DNA from: Hyphomicrobium sp. | GTDB taxonomy: Bacteria > Pseudomonadota > Alphaproteobacteria > Rhizobiales > Hyphomicrobiaceae | Direction of reading: 5' to 3' | Assembly (NCBI GenBank): GCA_003987725.1 | Contig: RXJH01000007.1 | Location: forward strand, 65,177-129,176 | Length of the DNA: 64,000 nucleotides | Shown here: positions 27,618 to 38,019 of the stretch, in pieces | Layout of the letters: each line of letters opens with the position of its first letter | Position numbering within the stretch: the first letter of the stretch is position 1 | The notes under the pieces: model-generated | The model's input: only the letters and a program-made list of their open reading frames with translations | What the model was told of the DNA's origin: nothing | Databases searched by the model: none | Position numbers and translations under genes: made by a program

Positions 27618-29219
27618 TCAATGTGCCGCTGAGGCGCCGCTGCTACGCGGCGCCTTTTGCGCGAACAGCAACGCCACCGCTGCGATCGCCAGCATGACGG
27701 CGATCACCGCGAACGTATCGCTGAAGCCCATGACCAGCGCTTGCCGCTTGACCGTCTTGCCGAGCGCGATGATCGCCTGATGGCGTGCCGCCGCGGCGTC
27801 GGAAATGCCGTGCGCCATGAAATAGCTAGTCATCTCGTCGATCCGCTGACGAACTTCGTCGCGATAGACCGTCACGGATTGCCCGATGACGTTCGAGTGA
27901 AACTGCTCGCGCTTCGTGATGATCGTTTCGAGCGCGGCCGTGCCCACGGCGCCCGCCAGGTTACGCAACATGTTGAAAAGCCCGGAAGCATTGGCCGCGT
28001 CTTTAGGCGCGATGCCCGAGGTCGCAATGGCCGTCAGCGGCGTCAGGATCAGCGCCTGGCCAACTGCGCGCACGATGTTCGGCAGGAAGAACTGATCGCC
28101 GGAATAATCGAGCGACATGTTGACGTTCATGAAGCAGCTCAACGCAAAAAGTGCGATGCCTGCCACGCCGATGTAACGCACATCAAAATGCTTCATCAGC
28201 AAAGGCACGAACGGGATAATCAGCAGCTGCGGCAAGCCGGTCCATGCGAGCACGTTGCCGATCTGCTCGGCGTTATACCCCTGCACCTGCCCGAGATACT
28301 GGGGCAGCACATAGACCGTCCCGAACAGCGCGAAGCCGACCAGCATGTTGGCGACGGTGCCGATACCGAAATTCCGGTTCTTCAGCAGCCGGAGATCGAC
28401 AAGCGGCTTTTGCACTTTTAGCTCGATCCACACGAACGCCGTCAGAAACACGACCGCGATGACCGCGAGTTTCACGATGAAGGGCGAGCCGAACCAGTCA
28501 TCCTTGTTGCCCTCTTCAAGCAGCGTCTGCAGCGCCGAAAGCCCGACGGCCATCGTGACGATGCCGGCCCAGTCGCCTTCCTTGAGAAGGCCGAGCCGCA
28601 ATTTGTCCTTCTCGAGCGTGAACCATAGTGCCACGATCATGATCGCGCTCGGGATCGCGTTGATGAAAAAGATCTTCTGCCAACCGTAGTTCTCGGTCAG
28701 ATATCCGCCGATCGTCGGGCCGATGGCCGGAGCAAACGTGACGGCGATGGCGAAAAGCGCCAGGCCCACGGGTTGCTGAGGCTTCGGCAGCTTCGTGACG
28801 ACCATCGTGAACGCCATCGGAATGAGGACGCCGCCCGCGAACCCCTGAAGGCCCCGCATCGCGATCATCGTGCCGAGATCGTGCGCAAAGGCGCATGCCA
28901 TCGAGAATACGGCAAAGAAAAAAGTGCTGACGAGAATGTACCGGCGAAACCCAAAGACGCGGCTGAAATATCCGGTCAGCGGAATGACGACGATTTCGCC
29001 GATGAGATACGACGTCGATATCCACGCGCCGTTGTCGGCGCCGGTTCCGATCCCGCCTTCGATATCGAGAAGGGATGCGTTGGTGATCTGGATATTCAGG
29101 ATCGACATGAAGGCGCCGATCATACCGGCGACGACGGCGATCCAGGTCGTCAGGCTTGCTTTATCGGCGGCCGCCTTCGGAAAATCCGCGCCGGTTGCTG
29201 CTTGAACACTGCTTGCCAT
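27618..29219 (-). CDS. emrB: DHA2-family multidrug MFS pump, EmrB type
   Basis: 533 residues with 14 predicted helices. N-terminal WIAVVAGMIGAFMSILNIQI, then ISTSYLIGEIVVIPLTGYFS and motif C (ALFAIAVTFAPAIGPTIGGY) of drug:H+ antiporters. It is the inner-membrane pump of an EmrAB-TolC-like tripartite system that expels hydrophobic compounds. It follows emrA by 35 nt in the same operon. The last 12 codons contain a hairpin that can serve as the terminator of the opposing MFS gene. Confidence 0.93.
   Translation of the reverse strand: MASSVQAATGADFPKAAADKASLTTWIAVVAGMIGAFMSILNIQITNASLLDIEGGIGTGADNGAWISTSYLIGEIVVIPLTGYFSRVFGFRRYILVSTFFFAVFSMACAFAHDLGTMIAMRGLQGFAGGVLIPMAFTMVVTKLPKPQQPVGLALFAIAVTFAPAIGPTIGGYLTENYGWQKIFFINAIPSAIMIVALWFTLEKDKLRLGLLKEGDWAGIVTMAVGLSALQTLLEEGNKDDWFGSPFIVKLAVIAVVFLTAFVWIELKVQKPLVDLRLLKNRNFGIGTVANMLVGFALFGTVYVLPQYLGQVQGYNAEQIGNVLAWTGLPQLLIIPFVPLLMKHFDVRYIGVAGIALFALSCFMNVNMSLDYSGDQFFLPNIVRAVGQALILTPLTAIATSGIAPKDAANASGLFNMLRNLAGAVGTAALETIITKREQFHSNVIGQSVTVYRDEVRQRIDEMTSYFMAHGISDAAAARHQAIIALGKTVKRQALVMGFSDTFAVIAVMLAIAAVALLFAQKAPRSSGASAAH
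27633..27658 (+). terminator. Intrinsic terminator for the MFS gene, inside emrB coding sequence
   Basis: Perfect 8-bp stem GGCGCCGC / GCGGCGCC (6-nt loop) followed by TTTT on the plus strand. It lies 55 nt past the MFS stop and within the last codons of the opposing emrB gene. Confidence 0.65.
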
Positions 29220-29254
29220 AGCTGCTCACTCCGGCGCGGATAACGCCTGCGCCA

Positions 29255-30481
29255 TTATTTGGCTGCGATAGACGCTGCGGTTACATCGGCCTTTTTCGTT
29301 TCAATCGTCGGATAGACCGACATGCCCGGACGAAGCTCGTTTGCGAGTGGGTTTCCCTTGTCCAGCGTGATCTTCACCGGAATGCGCTGGACGATTTTGG
29401 TGAAGTTGCCAGTCGCGTTATCCGGCGGCAAAAGTGCGAACTGCTGGCCGCTCGCCGGCGCAAGGCTATCGACGTGCGCCGGGATTTCCACACCCGGAAA
29501 CATATCGACCTCGACCGTCACGGCCTGCCCCGGGCGAACGTCCGCAAGCTGCGTTTCTTTGTAGTTGGCGACGATATAAGCAGCAGACGTCGGAACAACC
29601 GCCATCAGCTGCGTCCCGGCCTGAACGAACTGACCGGCACGCAAGGTACGGTTCCCGACGAAACCGTCGACCGGCGACAGAATGTTCGTATAGGAGAGAT
29701 TGAGTTCGGCCTGCCGCTGCACGGCTTCATTGCGCGCCTGCGTCGCCTGCGCCTGAGCCAGCTCTGCTTTCAAAATATCGGTCTGCTTCGTCGCCGTCGC
29801 GAGCGCAGCCGTGTCGCGCGCGATCGCGGCGCGAGCAGCTGCAATCCGTGACGTTGCCTGCTGGGCGTTCTGAACGCTGCCGTATCCCGTGGTCGCGAGA
29901 TGCGAGTAACGCTGATTGTCCTGCTCCGCGAACGTCTCATTCGCGCGATCAGCATCGATCGTCGCCTTGGCGCTGTCGATCACCGACTGCTGCGCGTCGA
30001 GCGACGCCTGCTTGTTCGCAACGGAGGCCTTTGCCGCGAGGACGTCGGCCTTCGCCTGATCGAGCGCGACCTTGAAATCGCGATCGTCGATCCGCGCCAG
30101 CACTTGGCCCACCTTCACCGCCTCGTTGTCGCCAACGAGAACATCCGAGAGATAACCCGAAACCTTCGGCGCGATCGTCGTGTTGTCGGCCTGGACGTAC
30201 GCGTCGTCCGTCGAAACCTGGAAACGCCAAACCGTCCAGTACTGCCAGCCGAAGTATGCGGCGGCCGCCAGAACGGCGAGGCTCGCCCCCGCGACAAGCG
30301 CCCCACGTGCCCTCTTCGGAGCCTGAACCGGCGGCTGCGCCTCGACGTGCGTATCATCGCCTGCCGGCGCTTTGAAATCTTCGACGTTCGATGGCTTCTG
30401 CGCTGTTGCGGGGACGTAACGCACTGTTTCCGCGTCAGAAATCTCTCTATCTGCCGTCAGCGCCGTTGAATGAAGACCCAT
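29255..30481 (-). CDS. emrA: HlyD-family periplasmic adaptor, EmrA type
   Basis: 408 residues. An N-terminal cytosolic tail of about 60 residues precedes one membrane helix (ARGALVAGASLAVLAAAAYF). The split biotinyl-lipoyl domain starts VSTDDAYVQADNTTIAPKVS, a long coiled-coil hairpin covers about 130-235, and the beta-barrel has IVANYKETQLADVRPGQAVT and the C-terminal VKITLDKGNPLANELRPGMS. It links EmrB to an outer membrane channel such as the NodT-type protein at 0.8 kb. It is divergent from the tetR-type regulator, with the shared control region at 30482-30595. Confidence 0.93.
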   Translation of the reverse strand: MGLHSTALTADREISDAETVRYVPATAQKPSNVEDFKAPAGDDTHVEAQPPVQAPKRARGALVAGASLAVLAAAAYFGWQYWTVWRFQVSTDDAYVQADNTTIAPKVSGYLSDVLVGDNEAVKVGQVLARIDDRDFKVALDQAKADVLAAKASVANKQASLDAQQSVIDSAKATIDADRANETFAEQDNQRYSHLATTGYGSVQNAQQATSRIAAARAAIARDTAALATATKQTDILKAELAQAQATQARNEAVQRQAELNLSYTNILSPVDGFVGNRTLRAGQFVQAGTQLMAVVPTSAAYIVANYKETQLADVRPGQAVTVEVDMFPGVEIPAHVDSLAPASGQQFALLPPDNATGNFTKIVQRIPVKITLDKGNPLANELRPGMSVYPTIETKKADVTAASIAAK

Positions 30482-30535
30482 GGACCCTGTTCCTCGCAGC
30501 CAAACGCGGCCCCTATGCCGCGACCATTAGGAAAT

Positions 30536-30564
30536 TTGACGTTTTCCAAAATAAGCACTATAAA
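30536..30564 (+). promoter_or_regulatory. Sigma-70 promoter of the TetR-type regulator
   Basis: TTGACG (30536-30541), a 17-nt spacer and TATAAA (30559-30564), close to the housekeeping consensus. The ATG of the regulator is at 30596. The TTTTCCAAA half-site of the presumed operator lies within the spacer. Confidence 0.7.
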
Positions 30565-30590
30565 ATCGATGTCAACAAGAATTTGGAAAA
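30542..30590. promoter_or_regulatory. Presumed TetR-family operator half-sites
   Basis: TTTTCCAAA at 30542-30550 and its exact inverse TTTGGAAAA at 30582-30590. They flank the promoter region between emrA and the regulator gene; one lies in the promoter spacer and the other just before the regulator start. Wide spacing between arms could mean two binding sites or one looped site. Confidence 0.45.
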
Positions 30591-30595
30591 TGATC

Positions 30596-31243
30596 ATGGG
30601 ACAAAATAGTACGGCTCAGAGGCGCTGTCGCGGCCGGCCGCAAATCCGGCCCGACGAGGAGACGCTTCACCTCCTGATCGAGGCCGCAGCCGTGGAGTTC
30701 CAGGAAAAGGGCTACGCGTCGGCCACGATGGGAAACGTCGCCCAGCGCGCCGGAATTTCGACGAAGACGATGTACCGCCTCATCCCCGCCAAGGCTGACC
30801 TTTTCGAAAAGGTCATCGCCGACCGGACCGCGCGCTTCATGCTCGCAGTCGAGCCTTCCGACCTCGATCGCTACGAACTCGCCGACGCTGTCGAGCATTT
30901 CCTCATTGCCTTCGGCAACCTGGCGCTCGACCGGGAAACGATCGCCATGCTTCGGTTGGTCATTGGCGAAAGGGATCGCTGTCCCGAGCTTGCCGCGACC
31001 TTCCACGAGGTCGCCGTGACGCAGACCACGAAAGCCATGACGTTGTGGCTGGAACGCCAGCGCGACCGCGGATTGCTAAAATTTGATGATCCTGTCGCAA
31101 CGGTCAGCGCGCTGCGAGGAATGATGGTGATGGATTTACAGCGCACCGCGATGCTCGGGTTGGCCCCCGCTCCCTCACCCGAAGAGATCAAGGCAAGAGC
31201 CCGGATCTGCGCCAAGCTTTTCCTCGATGGATGCCGAGCCTGA
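30596..31243 (+). CDS. TetR/AcrR-family transcriptional regulator
   Basis: 215 residues from the ATG at 30596 (MGQNSTAQRRCRGRPQIRPD), which has TTGGAAA about 8 nt upstream; the frame opens upstream to 30470. The N-terminal helix-turn-helix is ATMGNVAQRAGISTKTMYRL, followed by a helical ligand-binding domain. It is divergently arranged with emrAB and almost certainly represses it, with a drug-like ligand as inducer. Confidence 0.92.
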   Translation: MGQNSTAQRRCRGRPQIRPDEETLHLLIEAAAVEFQEKGYASATMGNVAQRAGISTKTMYRLIPAKADLFEKVIADRTARFMLAVEPSDLDRYELADAVEHFLIAFGNLALDRETIAMLRLVIGERDRCPELAATFHEVAVTQTTKAMTLWLERQRDRGLLKFDDPVATVSALRGMMVMDLQRTAMLGLAPAPSPEEIKARARICAKLFLDGCRA

Positions 31244-31437
31244 ACCGCGAAAATAGGCTGTGAGCGGAACTTCCACCGGCGCTGAAAGTAAGAAGCTTCT
31301 GTTCCCAATGAGATCGTCCCGCACGGCGCGGCGACTGTTCGCAACGGAAACGGCGCGACCGTCGCGTTTAAAACCTACGAGTTCGGCACTCGTGAGGTTT
31401 GCTTCCGCGAAACCAGGAGAAAGCCCAGGAGGAAGCT

Positions 31438-32613
31438 ATGACCGATGGCTCGCCCGCGCCACCTTCTCCTCGCCACGCACGCCCACTGGCTCTTAGGACG
31501 CTCGCAATCGCCACCATCGCATCGGCGGGAATTCTGGCATGGCATCTCACCAAGACCGAAGGCCGTTGGACCGCCGCCGCGCACAGCGAACCGGCGACGA
31601 GCACACTCGAAACGACTGACGATGCATTCATCGCCGGTGACGTCACACCCCTCGCGACCAAGGTGTCGGGCTACATCCGAGCGGTGCCGGTCACCGATTT
31701 TCAGGCTGTGAAGAAGGGTGATCTCCTCGCCGAAATTGACCCGTCCGATTACAACGCCGCGCTCGTTCAAGCTCAGGCGAACGTCGCCTCTGCGCAGGCA
31801 AACCTCGACAATCTCGCCAATCGGAAAGAAAGCCAGCAAAGCCTCGTGCGTCAGGCTCAAGCAGCAGTAGACGCGGCTGTGGCCGATCTCGATCGCTACA
31901 CGCTTGAAGCCAAGCGCCAGCACGACTTGCTGAAATCGAGCGATATCGGCACGACTCAGCGCGTCGAGCAAGCCGACGGCAACGCACGACGGAGCACGGC
32001 TCAGTTGGCTCTCAGCAAAGCCCAGCTTGATCAGCAGAAAACCGCTCTCGCAAGCCTCGCCCCCGCTGAGGTGCAGTTCGAAGCACAGCTGCGTGCTGCC
32101 AAAGCCGTGGAGACCCTTGCGCAGAACAACATGACGAGCACGCGCATCCTGTCGCCGGCGGACGGAATGGTCGGCCAGCGTCAGGTCCGTCCCGGGCAAT
32201 TCGTCGGCGTGGGATCTCCGATAATCACGGTCGTTTCGCTTCCCAATGTTTGGGTCATCGCGAACTTCAAGGAAACCCAGATGACGAATGTGCGGTCCGG
32301 ACAAACGGCGCGCATCAAGGTCGATGCCTTTCCGGATCTGAACGTGACGGGCCACGTCGAGAGTTGGGCGCCGGGCACCGCCAACATTTTCGCGTCGCAG
32401 TCTTTCGATCCGAATACGGCGTCGGGGAATTTCACGAAGGTCGCCCAGCGCGTCCCCGTGAAGATCGCCCTCGATCAAAACCCGGCGTTCGGCACGCTTG
32501 TACGGCCTGGAATGTCGGTTGAAGCGACGATCAATACGGGAAGCGGTCCTGTGGGCACCGGCTCAAGACCGTCAACGGCTGCCTCAGATCCGCCAACGGC
32601 ATCAGCCAGATGA
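31438..32613 (+). CDS. Second HlyD-family secretion adaptor, no partner pump
   Basis: 391 residues from the ATG at 31438, with GGAGGAAG just upstream. One N-terminal membrane helix (LALRTLAIATIASAGILAWH) precedes the lipoyl half-motif TTDDAFIAGDVTPLATKVSG and a coiled coil (about 110-220). The beta-barrel has VWVIANFKETQMTNVRSGQT and the C-terminus has VPVKIALDQNPAFGTLVRPG. It is clearly paralogous to EmrA at 29.3-30.5 kb, with the same domain order. No MFS or ABC pump gene follows; the next gene is an exonuclease. It may share EmrB or work with a remote pump. Confidence 0.9.
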   Translation: MTDGSPAPPSPRHARPLALRTLAIATIASAGILAWHLTKTEGRWTAAAHSEPATSTLETTDDAFIAGDVTPLATKVSGYIRAVPVTDFQAVKKGDLLAEIDPSDYNAALVQAQANVASAQANLDNLANRKESQQSLVRQAQAAVDAAVADLDRYTLEAKRQHDLLKSSDIGTTQRVEQADGNARRSTAQLALSKAQLDQQKTALASLAPAEVQFEAQLRAAKAVETLAQNNMTSTRILSPADGMVGQRQVRPGQFVGVGSPIITVVSLPNVWVIANFKETQMTNVRSGQTARIKVDAFPDLNVTGHVESWAPGTANIFASQSFDPNTASGNFTKVAQRVPVKIALDQNPAFGTLVRPGMSVEATINTGSGPVGTGSRPSTAASDPPTASAR

Positions 32614-32855: not shown

Positions 32856-33476
32856 ATGACCGCGCCCAAGATCAAGCTTCACAAAGGTGACTTACCAGCC
32901 GGCCTGACGTTTCCGAATGGCGTTGCGATCGACACCGAGACGCTCGGACTGAACCCCCATCGCGATCGCCTGTGCTTGGTGCAGCTTTCAGGTGGCGACG
33001 GCACGGCCCATCTCGTGAAGTTCGACGGTAAGAACTATGACGCTCCGCGTCTCAAGGCCCTTCTGACCGACCCGAAAGTTCTCAAGATTTTTCATTTCGC
33101 GCGCTTCGATATCGCAGTGCTTGAGCAGTACCTCGGAGTTGCAACCACACCGATTTATTGCACCAAGATCGCTTCGAAGCTTTCCCGCACCTACACGGAT
33201 CGCCACGGCCTGAAAGACCTCGTCGGGGAACTGCTTGGCATAGAACTTTCAAAGCAGCAGCAAAGCAGCGACTGGGGCGCCTCCGAACTTTCGGATAGCC
33301 AAAAGGCTTATGCTGCGAATGACGTCCTGCATCTTCACGAGGTTAAGAAGAAGCTCGATATGATGCTCGCGAGAGAAGGGAGGCAGGATTTGGCAGAAAA
33401 GGCCTTCGGCTTCTTGCCCACACGTGCCCGCCTCGACCTCGCCGGGTTCGAGGAAGACGATATATTCGCGCACTGA
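32856..33476 (+). CDS. RNase D-like 3'-5' exonuclease
   Basis: 206 residues, only the DEDDy exonuclease domain. Exo I is AIDTETLGL (Asp, Glu), Exo II lies in IFHFARFDIAVLEQYLG and Exo III is YAANDVLHLHEV (Tyr, Asp). The HRDC domains of full-length RNase D are absent, as in the short alphaproteobacterial form. Expected role: trimming of tRNA or other stable RNA 3' ends. It lies upstream of lptC/A-lptB-rpoN-hpf-ptsN, a conserved neighbourhood in Hyphomicrobiales. Confidence 0.92.
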   Translation: MTAPKIKLHKGDLPAGLTFPNGVAIDTETLGLNPHRDRLCLVQLSGGDGTAHLVKFDGKNYDAPRLKALLTDPKVLKIFHFARFDIAVLEQYLGVATTPIYCTKIASKLSRTYTDRHGLKDLVGELLGIELSKQQQSSDWGASELSDSQKAYAANDVLHLHEVKKKLDMMLAREGRQDLAEKAFGFLPTRARLDLAGFEEDDIFAH

Positions 33477-33566: not shown

Positions 33567-35513
33567 ATGGCCACTGCGGCTGTCACATCGAATAATACGG
33601 CTGTAGCTGGTAGCCCCGCGCGCGCCTCGGGCAACAGCATCGTCATTGCCGGCGATCGCACCCAAAGCCGCATCGCCGCTCATCGCCATTCCCAGCGCGT
33701 CCGGATTCTCAAAATTGGGCTGCCGCTTGCCGCCGTCGCGACGGTCGCGATTTCAACCATGAACATTCTCGGCAACGCCGGAATTGGGCCGGCGCTCCCG
33801 CCGATCGAAGTTCCGCAGATCGTTGCCGACAATCTCAAGATGCATAATCCGCATTACGAAGGCTTCAACGCTGACGGCGGACGCTATTGGGTGAAGGCCG
33901 AGACCGCGCAACAGGATCTGAAATCACTTACGGCCATTCATCTGCAAGGCATCACCGGCGAGCTGACGGATGCCAAAAAGCAGAAGACGAACCTCGTCGC
34001 GGCTCGCGGCCTCTTCGACAACAATACGAACGTCCTGGAGCTTTACGATTCGATCGACGTGACGGGCGACGGAGGACTGACCGCGAAGCTGACGCGAGCG
34101 ACGATCAGGACGAAAGAAAACATCATCACATCCGATCAGCCATCGACGATATTGATGGGCGCAGGACAAATCACGTCGAACCAACTCACCATCCGTCAAA
34201 AGGCGAAAGAATATACGTTCGTCGATAACGTGCGGACGCATATGAAGCCGAAGGAAGCTCAGCCTGCCGCCGGCGATCAATCGGCTGATCAAGCGCTTCC
34301 CTTTGGAAAGCCCGGTGAGCCCGTCGACGTCGAAGCCAATCGCCTCGACATCGACGACGTCAAGAAAACCGCATTCTATACGGGCAAAGTCGTCGCGACC
34401 CAGGCCGGGGCCACCATGACCGCCCCCGAAATGACCGTCACTTATGAAGGCTCGGTCGCGCCCGAAGGCGGCAATGCCGCGAAGCCCGTTTCGCAGGCCC
34501 CCGGCAGCCAGGGAACTAAGGTGAAGCAAATTCTCGCGACGGATACCGTCGTGCTGAAGCAGCCGAACGGCCAGACCGCAACCAGTCACACCGCGCTCTT
34601 CGATACGATCTCGAACACCGCCGTTCTCGAAGGCGATGTCGTGCTGACTCAAGGCGACGACAAGAAAGCCGTCGGCGATCGCGTCGATTACGATCAGACG
34701 GCGCAGACGATGGTTTTGACCGGTACCGTCGTCGTAACGCAGGGACCGAACGTGCTCCGCGGGCGTCGCCTGACCTACCACCGCACGACGAGCAAAATGC
34801 AGCTGACGTCGCCTGCGGATCAAAGTTCCGGAATAGGTGCAGGACGCATCACGGCGCATTTTGTTCGTCCTTCGGCAAAGGCGGGTGCGCAATCGACTGA
34901 CGACGATCAGGACAACAGTGGCGGCATATCGTTCGGTGCAGCCTTCAAAACCGATCCAAATTCGCCTTACGACGTCGTTGCCGAAAAGCTCGACGTCGAC
35001 GACGTGGCAAAGACCGCCTTGTTCACCGGCAACGTTTCGGCCGTACAGGGCAGCATCTCGATGCGATCGCAGGAACTGACAGCGTTCTACACCGGCAATG
35101 CCGGGATCGGTTCTACTGATGGCGCTGCGGCAGCTGCTGGCACGCCCGCGTCGCTGACGCACCTGACCGCCCGCAAGAAGGTCGTCGTGACCGCCAAGGA
35201 CGGCCAGACCGCAACGGGCGACTGGGCAGAGGTTGACGTCAAGAAAAACTTGACGACGCTCGGCGGCGCCGTCGTGCTGACCCAGGGCAAGAATATCGTG
35301 AACGGAACGAGGCTGGTGATCGACATGAACACTGGCGAGGCCACGATCAAGACCGAGCCGACAGCAACGAGCGGAGCTGTGATGACGAGCCGCGAGGGCG
35401 GCGCCAATGGCGAGGTCTTCAAGGCCGAACGTCCGAGCGCCGTCTTTTATCCGGGCCAATTGAAGAAATCGAAGATCCAGGCAGATAGCTGGCAGGTCCG
35501 TACGTCGCCTTGA
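33567..35513 (+). CDS. LptC fused to two LptA/OstA domains (LPS transport bridge protein)
   Basis: 648 residues. A cytosolic tail and one membrane helix (about 47-67, ILKIGLPLAAVATVAISTMN) lead into an LptC domain (about 75-230; NPHYEGFNADGGRYWVKAET). Two OstA/LptA repeats follow. The first (about 253-415) begins VEANRLDIDDVKKTAFYTGK; the second (about 468-600) begins VVAEKLDVDDVAKTALFTGN. They are clearly homologous to each other, each continuing with the 'mta.e..v.Y.G' and 'G..v.Y' beta-jellyroll signatures. In most bacteria LptC (about 190 residues) and LptA (about 180) are separate proteins that form a periplasmic beta-jellyroll bridge for LPS. Here they form one chain, and no separate lptA lies between it and lptB. 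Confidence 0.9.
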   Translation: MATAAVTSNNTAVAGSPARASGNSIVIAGDRTQSRIAAHRHSQRVRILKIGLPLAAVATVAISTMNILGNAGIGPALPPIEVPQIVADNLKMHNPHYEGFNADGGRYWVKAETAQQDLKSLTAIHLQGITGELTDAKKQKTNLVAARGLFDNNTNVLELYDSIDVTGDGGLTAKLTRATIRTKENIITSDQPSTILMGAGQITSNQLTIRQKAKEYTFVDNVRTHMKPKEAQPAAGDQSADQALPFGKPGEPVDVEANRLDIDDVKKTAFYTGKVVATQAGATMTAPEMTVTYEGSVAPEGGNAAKPVSQAPGSQGTKVKQILATDTVVLKQPNGQTATSHTALFDTISNTAVLEGDVVLTQGDDKKAVGDRVDYDQTAQTMVLTGTVVVTQGPNVLRGRRLTYHRTTSKMQLTSPADQSSGIGAGRITAHFVRPSAKAGAQSTDDDQDNSGGISFGAAFKTDPNSPYDVVAEKLDVDDVAKTALFTGNVSAVQGSISMRSQELTAFYTGNAGIGSTDGAAAAAGTPASLTHLTARKKVVVTAKDGQTATGDWAEVDVKKNLTTLGGAVVLTQGKNIVNGTRLVIDMNTGEATIKTEPTATSGAVMTSREGGANGEVFKAERPSAVFYPGQLKKSKIQADSWQVRTSP

Positions 35514-35579
35514 CCTTGTGAACGGCATGGCGGCATTTGAGGCGGCGGCGATAGGGCACGAAGGGCTGCGAGGTATCGG

Positions 35580-36440
35580 GTGTTTAAGGCTTTACCAATT
35601 CGCCTCAGATCGAAGTCGAATGGTGCAGGCGCCAATGGCGCAAGTGGGCACACCAACGGCGTAAGCGCACGCCAAGTGCCTTCCCCCGACGACCCGCACG
35701 CCATCGGCGCCGACGGCTGGCTCACGGCGTTCGACGTCAAGAAGTCATACCGCAAGCGGATGGTCGTCAAAGGCGTGAACCTGGCCGTGGGCCGGGGCGA
35801 ATCCGTTGGTCTTCTAGGTCCGAATGGCGCCGGCAAAACAACTGTTTTCTACATGATCACCGGCCTCGTCGCCGCCGACGAGGGCCGCATCACGATCGAC
35901 GGCGAGGACGTCACAAAACTGCCGATGTATCAGCGCGCCCGTCTCGGCGTCGGATATCTTCCTCAGGAGGCCTCGATCTTTCGCGGACTGACGGTCGAGC
36001 AGAACATCATGGCCGTCCTCGAATTGATCGAACCGAACCGTAAGGCCCGCCAGGAGCAGCTGGACAGCTTGCTCGAGGAATTTTCAATCACGCGACTGAG
36101 AAAATCGGCGGCGATGGCGCTTTCGGGCGGCGAACGCCGACGCTGCGAAATTGCCCGCGCGCTGGCCTCGCGCCCGTCGTTCATGTTGCTGGACGAACCA
36201 TTCGCCGGCATCGACCCCATAGCCGTCGGAGACATTCAGCAACTGGTTCGCCACTTGACCGAACGCGGTATTGGTGTGTTGATCACAGACCATAACGTTC
36301 GCGAAACACTAAGCCTGATCGATCGCGCCTACATTATTTACGATGGTCAGGTTCTGACACAGGGCAAGCCTTCTGAAATCATATCGAATGAAGATGTGCG
36401 GCGGGTCTACCTTGGCGATATGTTCGTTAACGCGCGTTGA
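35580..36440 (+). CDS. lptB: LPS export ABC transporter ATP-binding protein LptB
   Basis: 286 residues from a GTG. A non-conserved N-terminal extension of about 45 residues precedes the ABC domain. It has Walker A GPNGAGKTT (80-88), Q-loop Gln129 (GYLPQEASIF), signature LSGGE (181-185), Walker B FMLLDEP (201-207) and switch His238 (TDHNV). The LptB-type C-terminus (YIIYDGQVLTQGKPSEIISN, then VRRVYLGDMF) is present. It powers LPS extraction with LptF/LptG, which are not in this window. It lies 66 nt after the LptC/A fusion gene. A start nearer residue 40 is possible. Confidence 0.96.
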   Translation: MFKALPIRLRSKSNGAGANGASGHTNGVSARQVPSPDDPHAIGADGWLTAFDVKKSYRKRMVVKGVNLAVGRGESVGLLGPNGAGKTTVFYMITGLVAADEGRITIDGEDVTKLPMYQRARLGVGYLPQEASIFRGLTVEQNIMAVLELIEPNRKARQEQLDSLLEEFSITRLRKSAAMALSGGERRRCEIARALASRPSFMLLDEPFAGIDPIAVGDIQQLVRHLTERGIGVLITDHNVRETLSLIDRAYIIYDGQVLTQGKPSEIISNEDVRRVYLGDMFVNAR

Positions 36441-36486: not shown

Positions 36487-38019
36487 ATGGCGCTTTCAGC
36501 AAAATTAGAGCTGAGACAAGGCCAGCAGCTGGTAATGACGCCACAGCTGCAGCAGGCGATCCGTCTCCTGCAGCTCTCCAATCTCGAACTGAACGAATTC
36601 GTCGACTCCGAGCTCGAACGCAATCCGCTCCTCGAGCGCGACGACAACGCCAGCGCTAAGACCGCCGAAGAGCCGATCGTTGAACGCACGGAGGAAAGCA
36701 CTGCCGAGGACCGCTGGCTCGATCTGCGCGAGCCCGTCAACGACCATACCGGCGGCCTTGACGTCGACTTTGGCAACGTCTTCCAGGAGCCGGGAACAGG
36801 CGAACCCGGATTGGGCGCGACCTCGGCCGCAACATCGGGATTGAGCTGGGCCAACGTCTCCCAGCGCATGCATAATGGCGACGGCGACAACGATCTCGAG
36901 GATTTCGTCGCCAACCAGATTTCGCTCCGCGACCACCTGAGCAGTCAGCTGCCGCTGACCGTAAGCGACCCCATCGAACGGTTGATCGGCCAGTACCTGA
37001 TCGATCTCGTCGACGAGGCCGGCTACATCCCCGCGAACCTTGAAACGCTCGCCCAGCGTCTCGGCGCGCCGCTCGAATTGGTCGAAAGCGTGCTCGGCAA
37101 GCTTCAGACCTTCGATCCCCCCGGCATCTTCGCCCGGTCGCTGGCCGAATGCCTCGCGCTCCAGCTCAAAGAGCAAAATCGCTACGATCCCCTGATGGCG
37201 CAGCTTTTGGCGCATCTGGACCTGCTCGCCAGCCGCAACATCCCGGCCCTGAAACGGGCGATCGGCATCGATATGGACGAGCTTGCCGATATGATCCGCG
37301 AGATCAAACGGCTCAATCCCAAGCCCGGCCTCAAGTTCGGCTCCGTTCAGCTTCAGCCGGTTGTACCCGACGTCATCGTCCGCGCCGCCTCGGATGGCGG
37401 CTGGCACGTCGAACTGAATAGCGACACTCTGCCACGCGTACTGGTCAATCGCACCTACTACACGCGCATCGCCAAGTCCGCGACCAACGAGCGCGACAAG
37501 GGCTACATCTTCGATTGCCTGCAGACGGCGAATTGGCTCGTTAAGAGTTTAGATCAGCGAGCGCGCACGATCCTGAAGGTCGCAGAGCAGATCGTGCGGC
37601 AGCAGGACAGCTTCTTCATGTACGGCGTGCAGTACCTGCGCCCGCTCAATCTCAAAGTGATTGCCGACGCGATTTCGATGCACGAGTCGACCGTGTCGCG
37701 CGTCACCTCGAACAAGTACATCGCGACGCCAAGGGGTATATTCGAGCTGAAGTATTTCTTCACGTCCGCGATTGCCTCGGCCGCCGATGGCGAAGCACAC
37801 TCCTCGGAAGCCGTCCGCCATCGGATCAAGCAGCTGATCGACGCCGAAAGCGCCGGCGATGTTTTGTCCGACGATCAGCTCGTGGACCGCCTGAAAGGCG
37901 AAGGCATCGAGATTGCCCGCCGCACTGTCGCAAAGTATCGCGAGGCGATGCGCATACCCTCGTCGGTACAGCGCCGGCGCGACAAGAAACTGGTTGAACG
38001 TCTCGGCGACTTTGCATGA
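36487..38019 (+). CDS. rpoN: RNA polymerase sigma-54 factor RpoN
   Basis: 510 residues. Region I at the N-terminus is Gln/Leu-rich (QGQQLVMTPQLQQAIRLLQL), with NEFVDSELERNPLLE; an acidic region II follows (about 50-130). The core-binding domain has FDPPGIFARSLAECLALQLK. The C-terminus has the promoter-binding helix-turn-helix (ISMHESTVSRVTSNKYI) and the RpoN box ARRTVAKYRE at 477-486. It directs transcription of nitrogen and other genes with enhancer-binding activators. It starts 46 nt after lptB and precedes hpf and ptsN, the classic rpoN neighbourhood. Confidence 0.97.
   Translation: MALSAKLELRQGQQLVMTPQLQQAIRLLQLSNLELNEFVDSELERNPLLERDDNASAKTAEEPIVERTEESTAEDRWLDLREPVNDHTGGLDVDFGNVFQEPGTGEPGLGATSAATSGLSWANVSQRMHNGDGDNDLEDFVANQISLRDHLSSQLPLTVSDPIERLIGQYLIDLVDEAGYIPANLETLAQRLGAPLELVESVLGKLQTFDPPGIFARSLAECLALQLKEQNRYDPLMAQLLAHLDLLASRNIPALKRAIGIDMDELADMIREIKRLNPKPGLKFGSVQLQPVVPDVIVRAASDGGWHVELNSDTLPRVLVNRTYYTRIAKSATNERDKGYIFDCLQTANWLVKSLDQRARTILKVAEQIVRQQDSFFMYGVQYLRPLNLKVIADAISMHESTVSRVTSNKYIATPRGIFELKYFFTSAIASAADGEAHSSEAVRHRIKQLIDAESAGDVLSDDQLVDRLKGEGIEIARRTVAKYREAMRIPSSVQRRRDKKLVERLGDFA

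Follow-up and report, generated by a model that had tools for sequence, protein, structure and literature searches.

A Hyphomicrobium gene joining LptC to a pair of LptA domains in one predicted chain

Introduction

The number of LptA molecules in each lipopolysaccharide (LPS) bridge is called unknown in passages of papers from 2017, 2020, and 2024 (PMC5575297, PMC7237710, PMC10863985). A gene of Hyphomicrobium sp. bears on this number. The open reading frame (ORF) lies at 33567-35513 of a 64,000-nucleotide stretch of DNA, referred to here as the window (assembly GCA_003987725.1, contig RXJH01000007.1, positions 65,177 to 129,176, forward strand), and an original prediction made from the sequence read its product as LptC fused to two LptA domains. 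Our analysis supports the reading of a covalent LptC-LptA-LptA bridge. With a probability of about 0.8, one chain encoded by this gene makes up the entire inner-membrane-to-periplasm half of the LPS bridge, and this bridge most likely has a gene-fixed stoichiometry of one LptC to two LptA, a ratio that we infer.

Results

Domain architecture of the fusion protein

The ORF at 33567-35513 on the + strand starts with ATG and encodes 648 residues; LptC with its membrane anchor comes first, and two LptA domains follow. The LptC profiles PF06835 (E value 2.9e-15, 56.8 bits, curated cut-off 21) and TIGR04409 (E value 2.7e-23, 82.4 bits, curated cut-off 38) both match residues 51-226. The LptA profiles PF03968 (E value 7.3e-35) and TIGR03002 (E value 6.6e-31, 107.1 bits across the protein, curated cut-off 71.7) also exceed their curated cut-offs, bearing out the predicted composition of the chain. 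Three PF03968 stretches, at residues ~255-366, 367-408, and 470-590, correspond to two LptA domains, of which the first is over-long, and both repeats lie above the PF03968 cut-off. The features of the gene are as follows.

33567..35513, + strand: lptC-lptA-lptA fusion gene, 648 residues, stop codon at 35511-35513; profile matches, and frame kept in relatives
33705..33776, + strand: single transmembrane anchor of the LptC type, residues ~47-70; hydropathy windows
33792..34244, + strand: LptC periplasmic domain, residues ~76-226; PF06835 and TIGR04409 above cut-off
34245..34322, + strand: linker 1, residues 227-252, variable and hydrophilic, without a hydrophobic stretch; length 18-37 in 39 relatives
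34323..34808, + strand: LptA domain 1, residues 253-414, over-long; PF03968 stretches
34548..34637, + strand: additional beta unit of ~30 residues within LptA domain 1, approximately residues 328-357; alignment gaps and strand count
34809..34967, + strand: linker 2, residues 415-467, probably flexible; predicted local distance difference test (pLDDT) score below 50 throughout, length 45-77 in 39 relatives
34968..35360, + strand: LptA domain 2, residues 468-598; best PF03968 stretch 470-590
35361..35510, + strand: C-terminal tail, residues 599-648, variable; length 45-102 in 39 relatives

The anchor was called from hydropathy alone. The six top 19-residue windows (1.83-1.47) all fall in residues 44-69, forming the one N-terminal hydrophobic segment ahead of the predicted periplasmic domain that is expected of LptC, while the best window beginning past residue 80 reaches 0.93. 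By the same measure, neither linker, nor any other part of the chain past residue 80, contains a signal-peptide-like or second hydrophobic stretch. Linker 1 occupies the position of the signal peptide in a free LptA. The LptA domains thus sit within the LptC chain, in contrast to a free LptA, which is soluble in the periplasm and has a signal peptide of its own.

Comparison of the two LptA repeats revealed 39% identity across 114 columns (E value 2e-19), indicating that they arose by duplication, and the originally proposed limits of 253-415 and 468-600 hold to within a few residues. The extra ~30-residue unit of LptA domain 1 is present in only part of the family, with a gap at this position in 6 of the 11 other aligned fused proteins. 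LptA domain 2 is the part nearest to the free LptA of other families, and most free LptAs listed from the order align there. In addition, an antisense open frame of 534 residues (33924-35528, − strand) overlies the fusion gene; it is probably a by-product of codon use, because the antisense frames that overlie this gene in relatives vary in length.

Predicted structure of the LptA repeats

The modelled fragment 243-598 contains two Lpt-type jellyrolls and matches solved structures of LptD, LptH, LptA, and LptC, with both repeats predicted to adopt the LptA-type jellyroll. Leaving aside an initial 3-residue strand in each, domain 1 has 10 predicted strands and domain 2 has 8. In the full-length model, residues 1-253, which include the LptC part, have pLDDT below 50 throughout, too poor to use for LptC. 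Residues 415-467 between the repeats also have pLDDT below 50. The expectation of three continuous jellyrolls was borne out in part: the two LptA repeats are predicted as jellyrolls, and the LptC part received no confident prediction. Given the low pLDDT of linker 2, the linkers look flexible, and the chain is read as domains on tethers more than as a rigid, continuous rod.

Lpt components in the genome

The fusion gene is followed after 66 bases by an ATP-binding cassette (ABC) ATPase gene, which we take to be lptB from its position and general knowledge. The gap leaves no room for an lptA ahead of lptB, as had been claimed. The genome, assembled in 15 contigs and 99.98% complete, also carries one LptD gene and two PF03739 genes (the LptF/LptG pair), and thus LptB, LptF, LptG, and LptD of the Lpt system are all present. 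A whole-genome search with PF03968 and PF13100 matched only the fusion gene, revealing no free LptA that could connect the membranes, although a very divergent form could escape such profiles. PF03968 matches something in 292 of 297 genomes of the order, which indicates that the search is sensitive. One point weighs on the other side: PF03968 misses the N-terminal domain of the genome's own LptD, in which OstA-type repeats are visible by eye, making the evidence for the absence of a free lptA strong and not absolute.

Conservation in the genus and family

The fusion protein is matched in 59 of 60 searched genomes (the genome of the window included here and in the genus count). All 22 searched genomes of the genus carry one uninterrupted LptC-LptA-LptA frame (C-A-A), which is also kept in more distant relatives, and a frameshift or assembly error joining separate genes was therefore rejected. 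Within the family, 44 of 46 genomes have the C-A-A frame, including one (G034) in which it reaches the contig end after domain 2. The remaining two (G029 and G030) are cut by contig ends and their pieces match; they were rejected as true splits, both pieces extending to contig ends. Named homologues at 73-95% identity come from four Hyphomicrobium, including H. facile DSM 1565, and two entries labelled Proteobacteria bacterium. Across 39 of the 44 family members, the mean identity to the window protein is 0.62 for LptC, 0.55 for LptA domain 1, and 0.61 for LptA domain 2, compared with 0.37 for linker 1, 0.47 for linker 2, and 0.46 for the tail. All three domains are better kept than the linkers and tail, as expected if all three are used.

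Distribution outside the family

The fused profile was used to survey 397 genomes of the order, 386 of the class, and 397 of the phylum, and the survey figures refer to the matches listed. In the order, 27 of the genomes listed have an uninterrupted C-A-A, with G030 in addition cut by contig ends; 20 of the 27 belong to the family of the window and 7 lie outside it (G036, G042, G177, G260, G323, G746, and G758). The fusion is thus not particular to this genome, being family-wide and occurring in four other places in the order. No C-A-A was listed outside the order in the class and phylum surveys, where distant groups score weakly and the test is a weak one. In the phylum survey, four genomes (G977, G1020, G1037, and G1028) gave a single match that spans LptC and LptA across an internal stop; these lie outside the parsed set.

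Loci were then parsed from stop to stop, in a sample biased to fused and long-frame cases in which a few loci reach the contig or locus end. The 164 distinct LptC loci counted in the order divide into 51 with C-A-A, 105 with separate lptC and lptA, 2 more split pairs that print with lptA first because their frames overlap, 3 with lptC followed by two separate lptA genes, 2 that are contig-cut (G029 and G030), and 1 with a broken LptC. The 37 class loci outside the order comprise 35 with separate lptC and lptA, 1 printed in the reverse order (also a split pair), 1 with lptC followed by a double LptA, and no C-A-A. Eight loci without an LptC match were left out of these counts (L079, L095, L238, L197, and four that are the second pieces of G029 and G030, both of them fetched twice). 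Wherever parsed loci are split, lptC and lptA adjoin in the same order as in the fusion. Every intact parsed LptC fusion (51/51) has two LptA domains and none has one; a single LptC-LptA fusion was found neither among the parsed loci nor among the matches listed in the three surveys.

Several long or same-frame loci were tried as fusions and rejected, each being two genes from stop to stop: G187, G730, G207, G067, G307, G777, G725, G165, G091, G282, G264, G080, and G112 in the order, and G432, G561, G550, G475, and others in the class. Other arrangements were observed among the unfused loci. In family f30 (L223, L224, and L225, from G243, G311, and G065), profile overlap points to free LptAs enlarged by one or two beta units of ~30 residues, and jellyroll length thus seems to vary stepwise in unfused LptA as well. 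Family f48 (L115, L116, and L158, from G171, G213, and G145) has two adjacent unfused lptA genes after lptC, the first with an insertion in its domain. Outside the order, L195 (G624) encodes a free protein of two LptA domains behind a separate LptC. At L226 (G225, genome 93% complete), LptC is spread over three frames, reflecting assembly error or decay. Genomes of family f49 (G084, G117, G146, and G172; 91-98% complete) match neither PF03968 nor PF06835, suggesting very divergent Lpt proteins or no LPS.

Evolutionary history of the fused state

A locus tree of LptC, LptB, and the last LptA was built for 63 loci (18 fused and 45 not; LptB present on the fetched stretch in 61) by a quick method without bootstrap. 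The fused state occupies five places on this tree, and the fused and split labels need 5 changes, 4 of them forced by well-supported branches. Two genera are mixed: g118 has fused G260, G323, G746, and G758 versus split G275 and G770, while g101 has fused G177 versus split G197 (G767 lying outside the parse). This tree supports the claim that the split and fused states have switched repeatedly, a statement that covers neither the direction of the switches nor a firm case for repeated duplication.

A more careful tree of LptA domains, with few columns and a bootstrap that had not settled, groups both copies of the window's family (f1) with the split LptAs of G052 and G073 (97/81), and pairs the G177 copies together beside the split G197 (100/68, 100/96). 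The copies of f1, G177, and G036/f30 fall in different places. A quick LptA tree did not recover the group of G052 and G073 with the window's family, and the two f1 copies no longer pair in it. In approximately unbiased (AU) tests, a single clade holding all 17 first LptA copies tested was not rejected (p 0.124). Nor were f1 with the G177 first copies (p 0.203) or f1 with the G036/f30 first copies (p 0.56), where the constrained tree was even slightly better. The G042 first copy (branch 2.93) and the over-long single LptAs of G520 and G488 were left out of the quick tree and the AU tests. Repeated independent duplication of LptA is thus the favoured reading in certain lineages only, and we make no firm claim for it, because the AU tests leave one origin of the first copy possible.

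Gene neighbourhood

The neighbours of the fusion gene are as follows.

32856..33476, + strand: 3'-5' exonuclease, RNase D-like, upstream of the fusion gene; PF01612, 1.1e-38
35580..36440, + strand: lptB, ABC ATPase, partner gene; PF00005, 6.4e-36
36487..38019, + strand: rpoN, sigma-54; three sigma-54 Pfam domains

Beyond rpoN lie genes for an S30EA/sigma-54 modulation protein and a phosphotransferase system EIIA protein. Farther upstream, at 27618-32613, lie genes that by eye resemble a major facilitator superfamily transporter and two EmrA/HlyD-type adaptors on opposite strands. A TetR-type regulator appears to stand between the adaptors, and the group may represent two halves of efflux pumps under one shared regulator.

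Discussion

Proposed mechanism of the fused bridge

In the proposed mechanism, the N-terminal helix and LptC domain would dock on LptB2FG in the manner of LptC, LPS would move head-to-tail along the pair of LptA jellyrolls on their covalent tether, and LptD would receive it from the second of them, the chain remaining uncut. According to passages of PMC5575297 and PMC7237710, LptC, LptA, and LptD of E. coli pair from C-terminal edge to N-terminal edge, with LptC contributing its C-terminal strand and LptA its N-terminal strand to the joint between these two. The C-A-A order would set each C-terminal edge beside the N-terminal edge with which it pairs there. With no free LptA to recruit, each LptC would bring exactly two LptA units, and we infer that the fusion fixes the stoichiometry and sets the bridge length. 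LptA-LptA binding is described as weaker than LptC-LptA binding in a passage of PMC5575297, and the covalent tether would turn this weak joint intramolecular.

The same source puts a one-LptA bridge at ~16 nm and cites a periplasm of 21 nm, while a passage of PMC10863985 gives ~4 nm per LptA and argues that a single LptA is enough for a 15-nm periplasm. By simple addition of these E. coli figures, which may not fit the Hyphomicrobium periplasm, a two-LptA bridge is estimated near 20 nm, and the extra ~30-residue unit would perhaps add ~1 nm, judging from strand spacing. The chain could act as a gene-counted ruler, with one LptC, exactly two LptA, and no exchangeable subunit, its length stepped by LptA domains or ~30-residue units. 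We hold this idea tentatively, at somewhat less than even odds. If it is true, the finding that loci are either split or fused with two LptA, and nothing in between, would imply that spanning this periplasm takes two LptA units.

Alternative explanations

The chain might be a polyprotein, cut at its linkers in the periplasm into an ordinary LptC and two free LptAs, in which case the fusion would set only the ratio of synthesis. The linkers are hydrophilic and variable, and the low pLDDT of linker 2 is what a cleavable linker might show; however, neither linker has a signal-peptide-like hydrophobic stretch, and they differ greatly in length and sequence, inspection by eye showing no conserved cleavage motif, leaving cleavage very unlikely. 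It is also conceivable that the LptA duplication has nothing to do with bridge length: one LptA domain, probably the over-long first, would have taken up a different task, for instance attachment to peptidoglycan or LptFG or retention of LPS, with only one LptA in the conduit. Domain 1 is indeed over-long and somewhat less conserved, and passages of PMC5575297 and PMC10863985 report that E. coli is viable with a non-oligomerising LptA and put a one-LptA bridge at 15-16 nm. We regard this second role as unlikely.

A neutral fusion deserves more weight but is still doubtful. Here, the stop codon and signal peptide would have been lost after a tandem duplication of lptA, with the bridge working unchanged. 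The adjoining lptC and lptA of parsed split loci would make such a fusion easy, and the three adjoining genes of family f48 are a plausible intermediate. Neutrality accords poorly with the retention of C-A-A across the family examined, its five places on the locus tree, and the fact that all 51 intact fusions parsed contain two LptA domains and none a single one, although this last pattern counts fewer times if the fused state arose once and was then lost, and the AU tests allow one origin of domain 1. The one-chain bridge remains our preferred reading.

Significance and comparison with known systems

A natural chain with a fixed LptA count would make the number of middle links needed testable by genetics. 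PMC12498426 contains a passage, citing a 2023 single-molecule paper, with the idea that bridge contacts are transient; in a bridge whose LptA is unable to leave LptC, assembly and disassembly would be possible only at the LptD joint. LptC is described at growth sites in Brucella abortus and Agrobacterium tumefaciens, two related bacteria with polar growth, with LptD dispersed in B. abortus (a passage of PMC9938171), and the fusion would keep LptA wherever LptC sits. Titles and opening abstracts of the open-access literature searched gave no description of a natural LptC-LptA fusion, several papers with the string LptCA being unopened, and no open-access paper was found that treats Hyphomicrobium together with LptA. 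Pfam and NCBIfam recognise the domain content, so databases may show the fusion without comment.

The proposed bridge has the same domains as the E. coli Lpt system, in the same order along the bridge and with the same partners LptB, LptF, LptG, and LptD. It differs from that system, in which LptC and LptA are separate and LptA oligomerises, in having one chain, one anchor, no LptA signal peptide, and no free LptA found. The split loci that make up most of those parsed in the order (for example G275, G197, and G052) have homologous LptC, LptA, and nearby LptB, with lptC and lptA adjoining in the same order, but consist of two genes with one LptA domain, some free LptAs of family f30 having one or two extra ~30-residue units. 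Family f48 (G145, G171, and G213) has two LptA copies beside LptC as in the window, but as separate proteins, and its two sets of copies group together in a clade of their own (100/99), away from the copies in the window's family. In G624, of the class outside the order, two LptA domains share one chain that is not joined to LptC. Farther afield, OstA-type or modelled bridge proteins are described in passages on the Lpt cluster of Negativicutes and Halanaerobiales (PMC5007114) and on TP0784/TP0785 of Treponema pallidum (PMC8407342), but in the former the LptC and LptA stand-ins are separate, and in the latter they are likewise two separate proteins, whereas the Hyphomicrobium gene carries LptC and both LptA domains in one chain.
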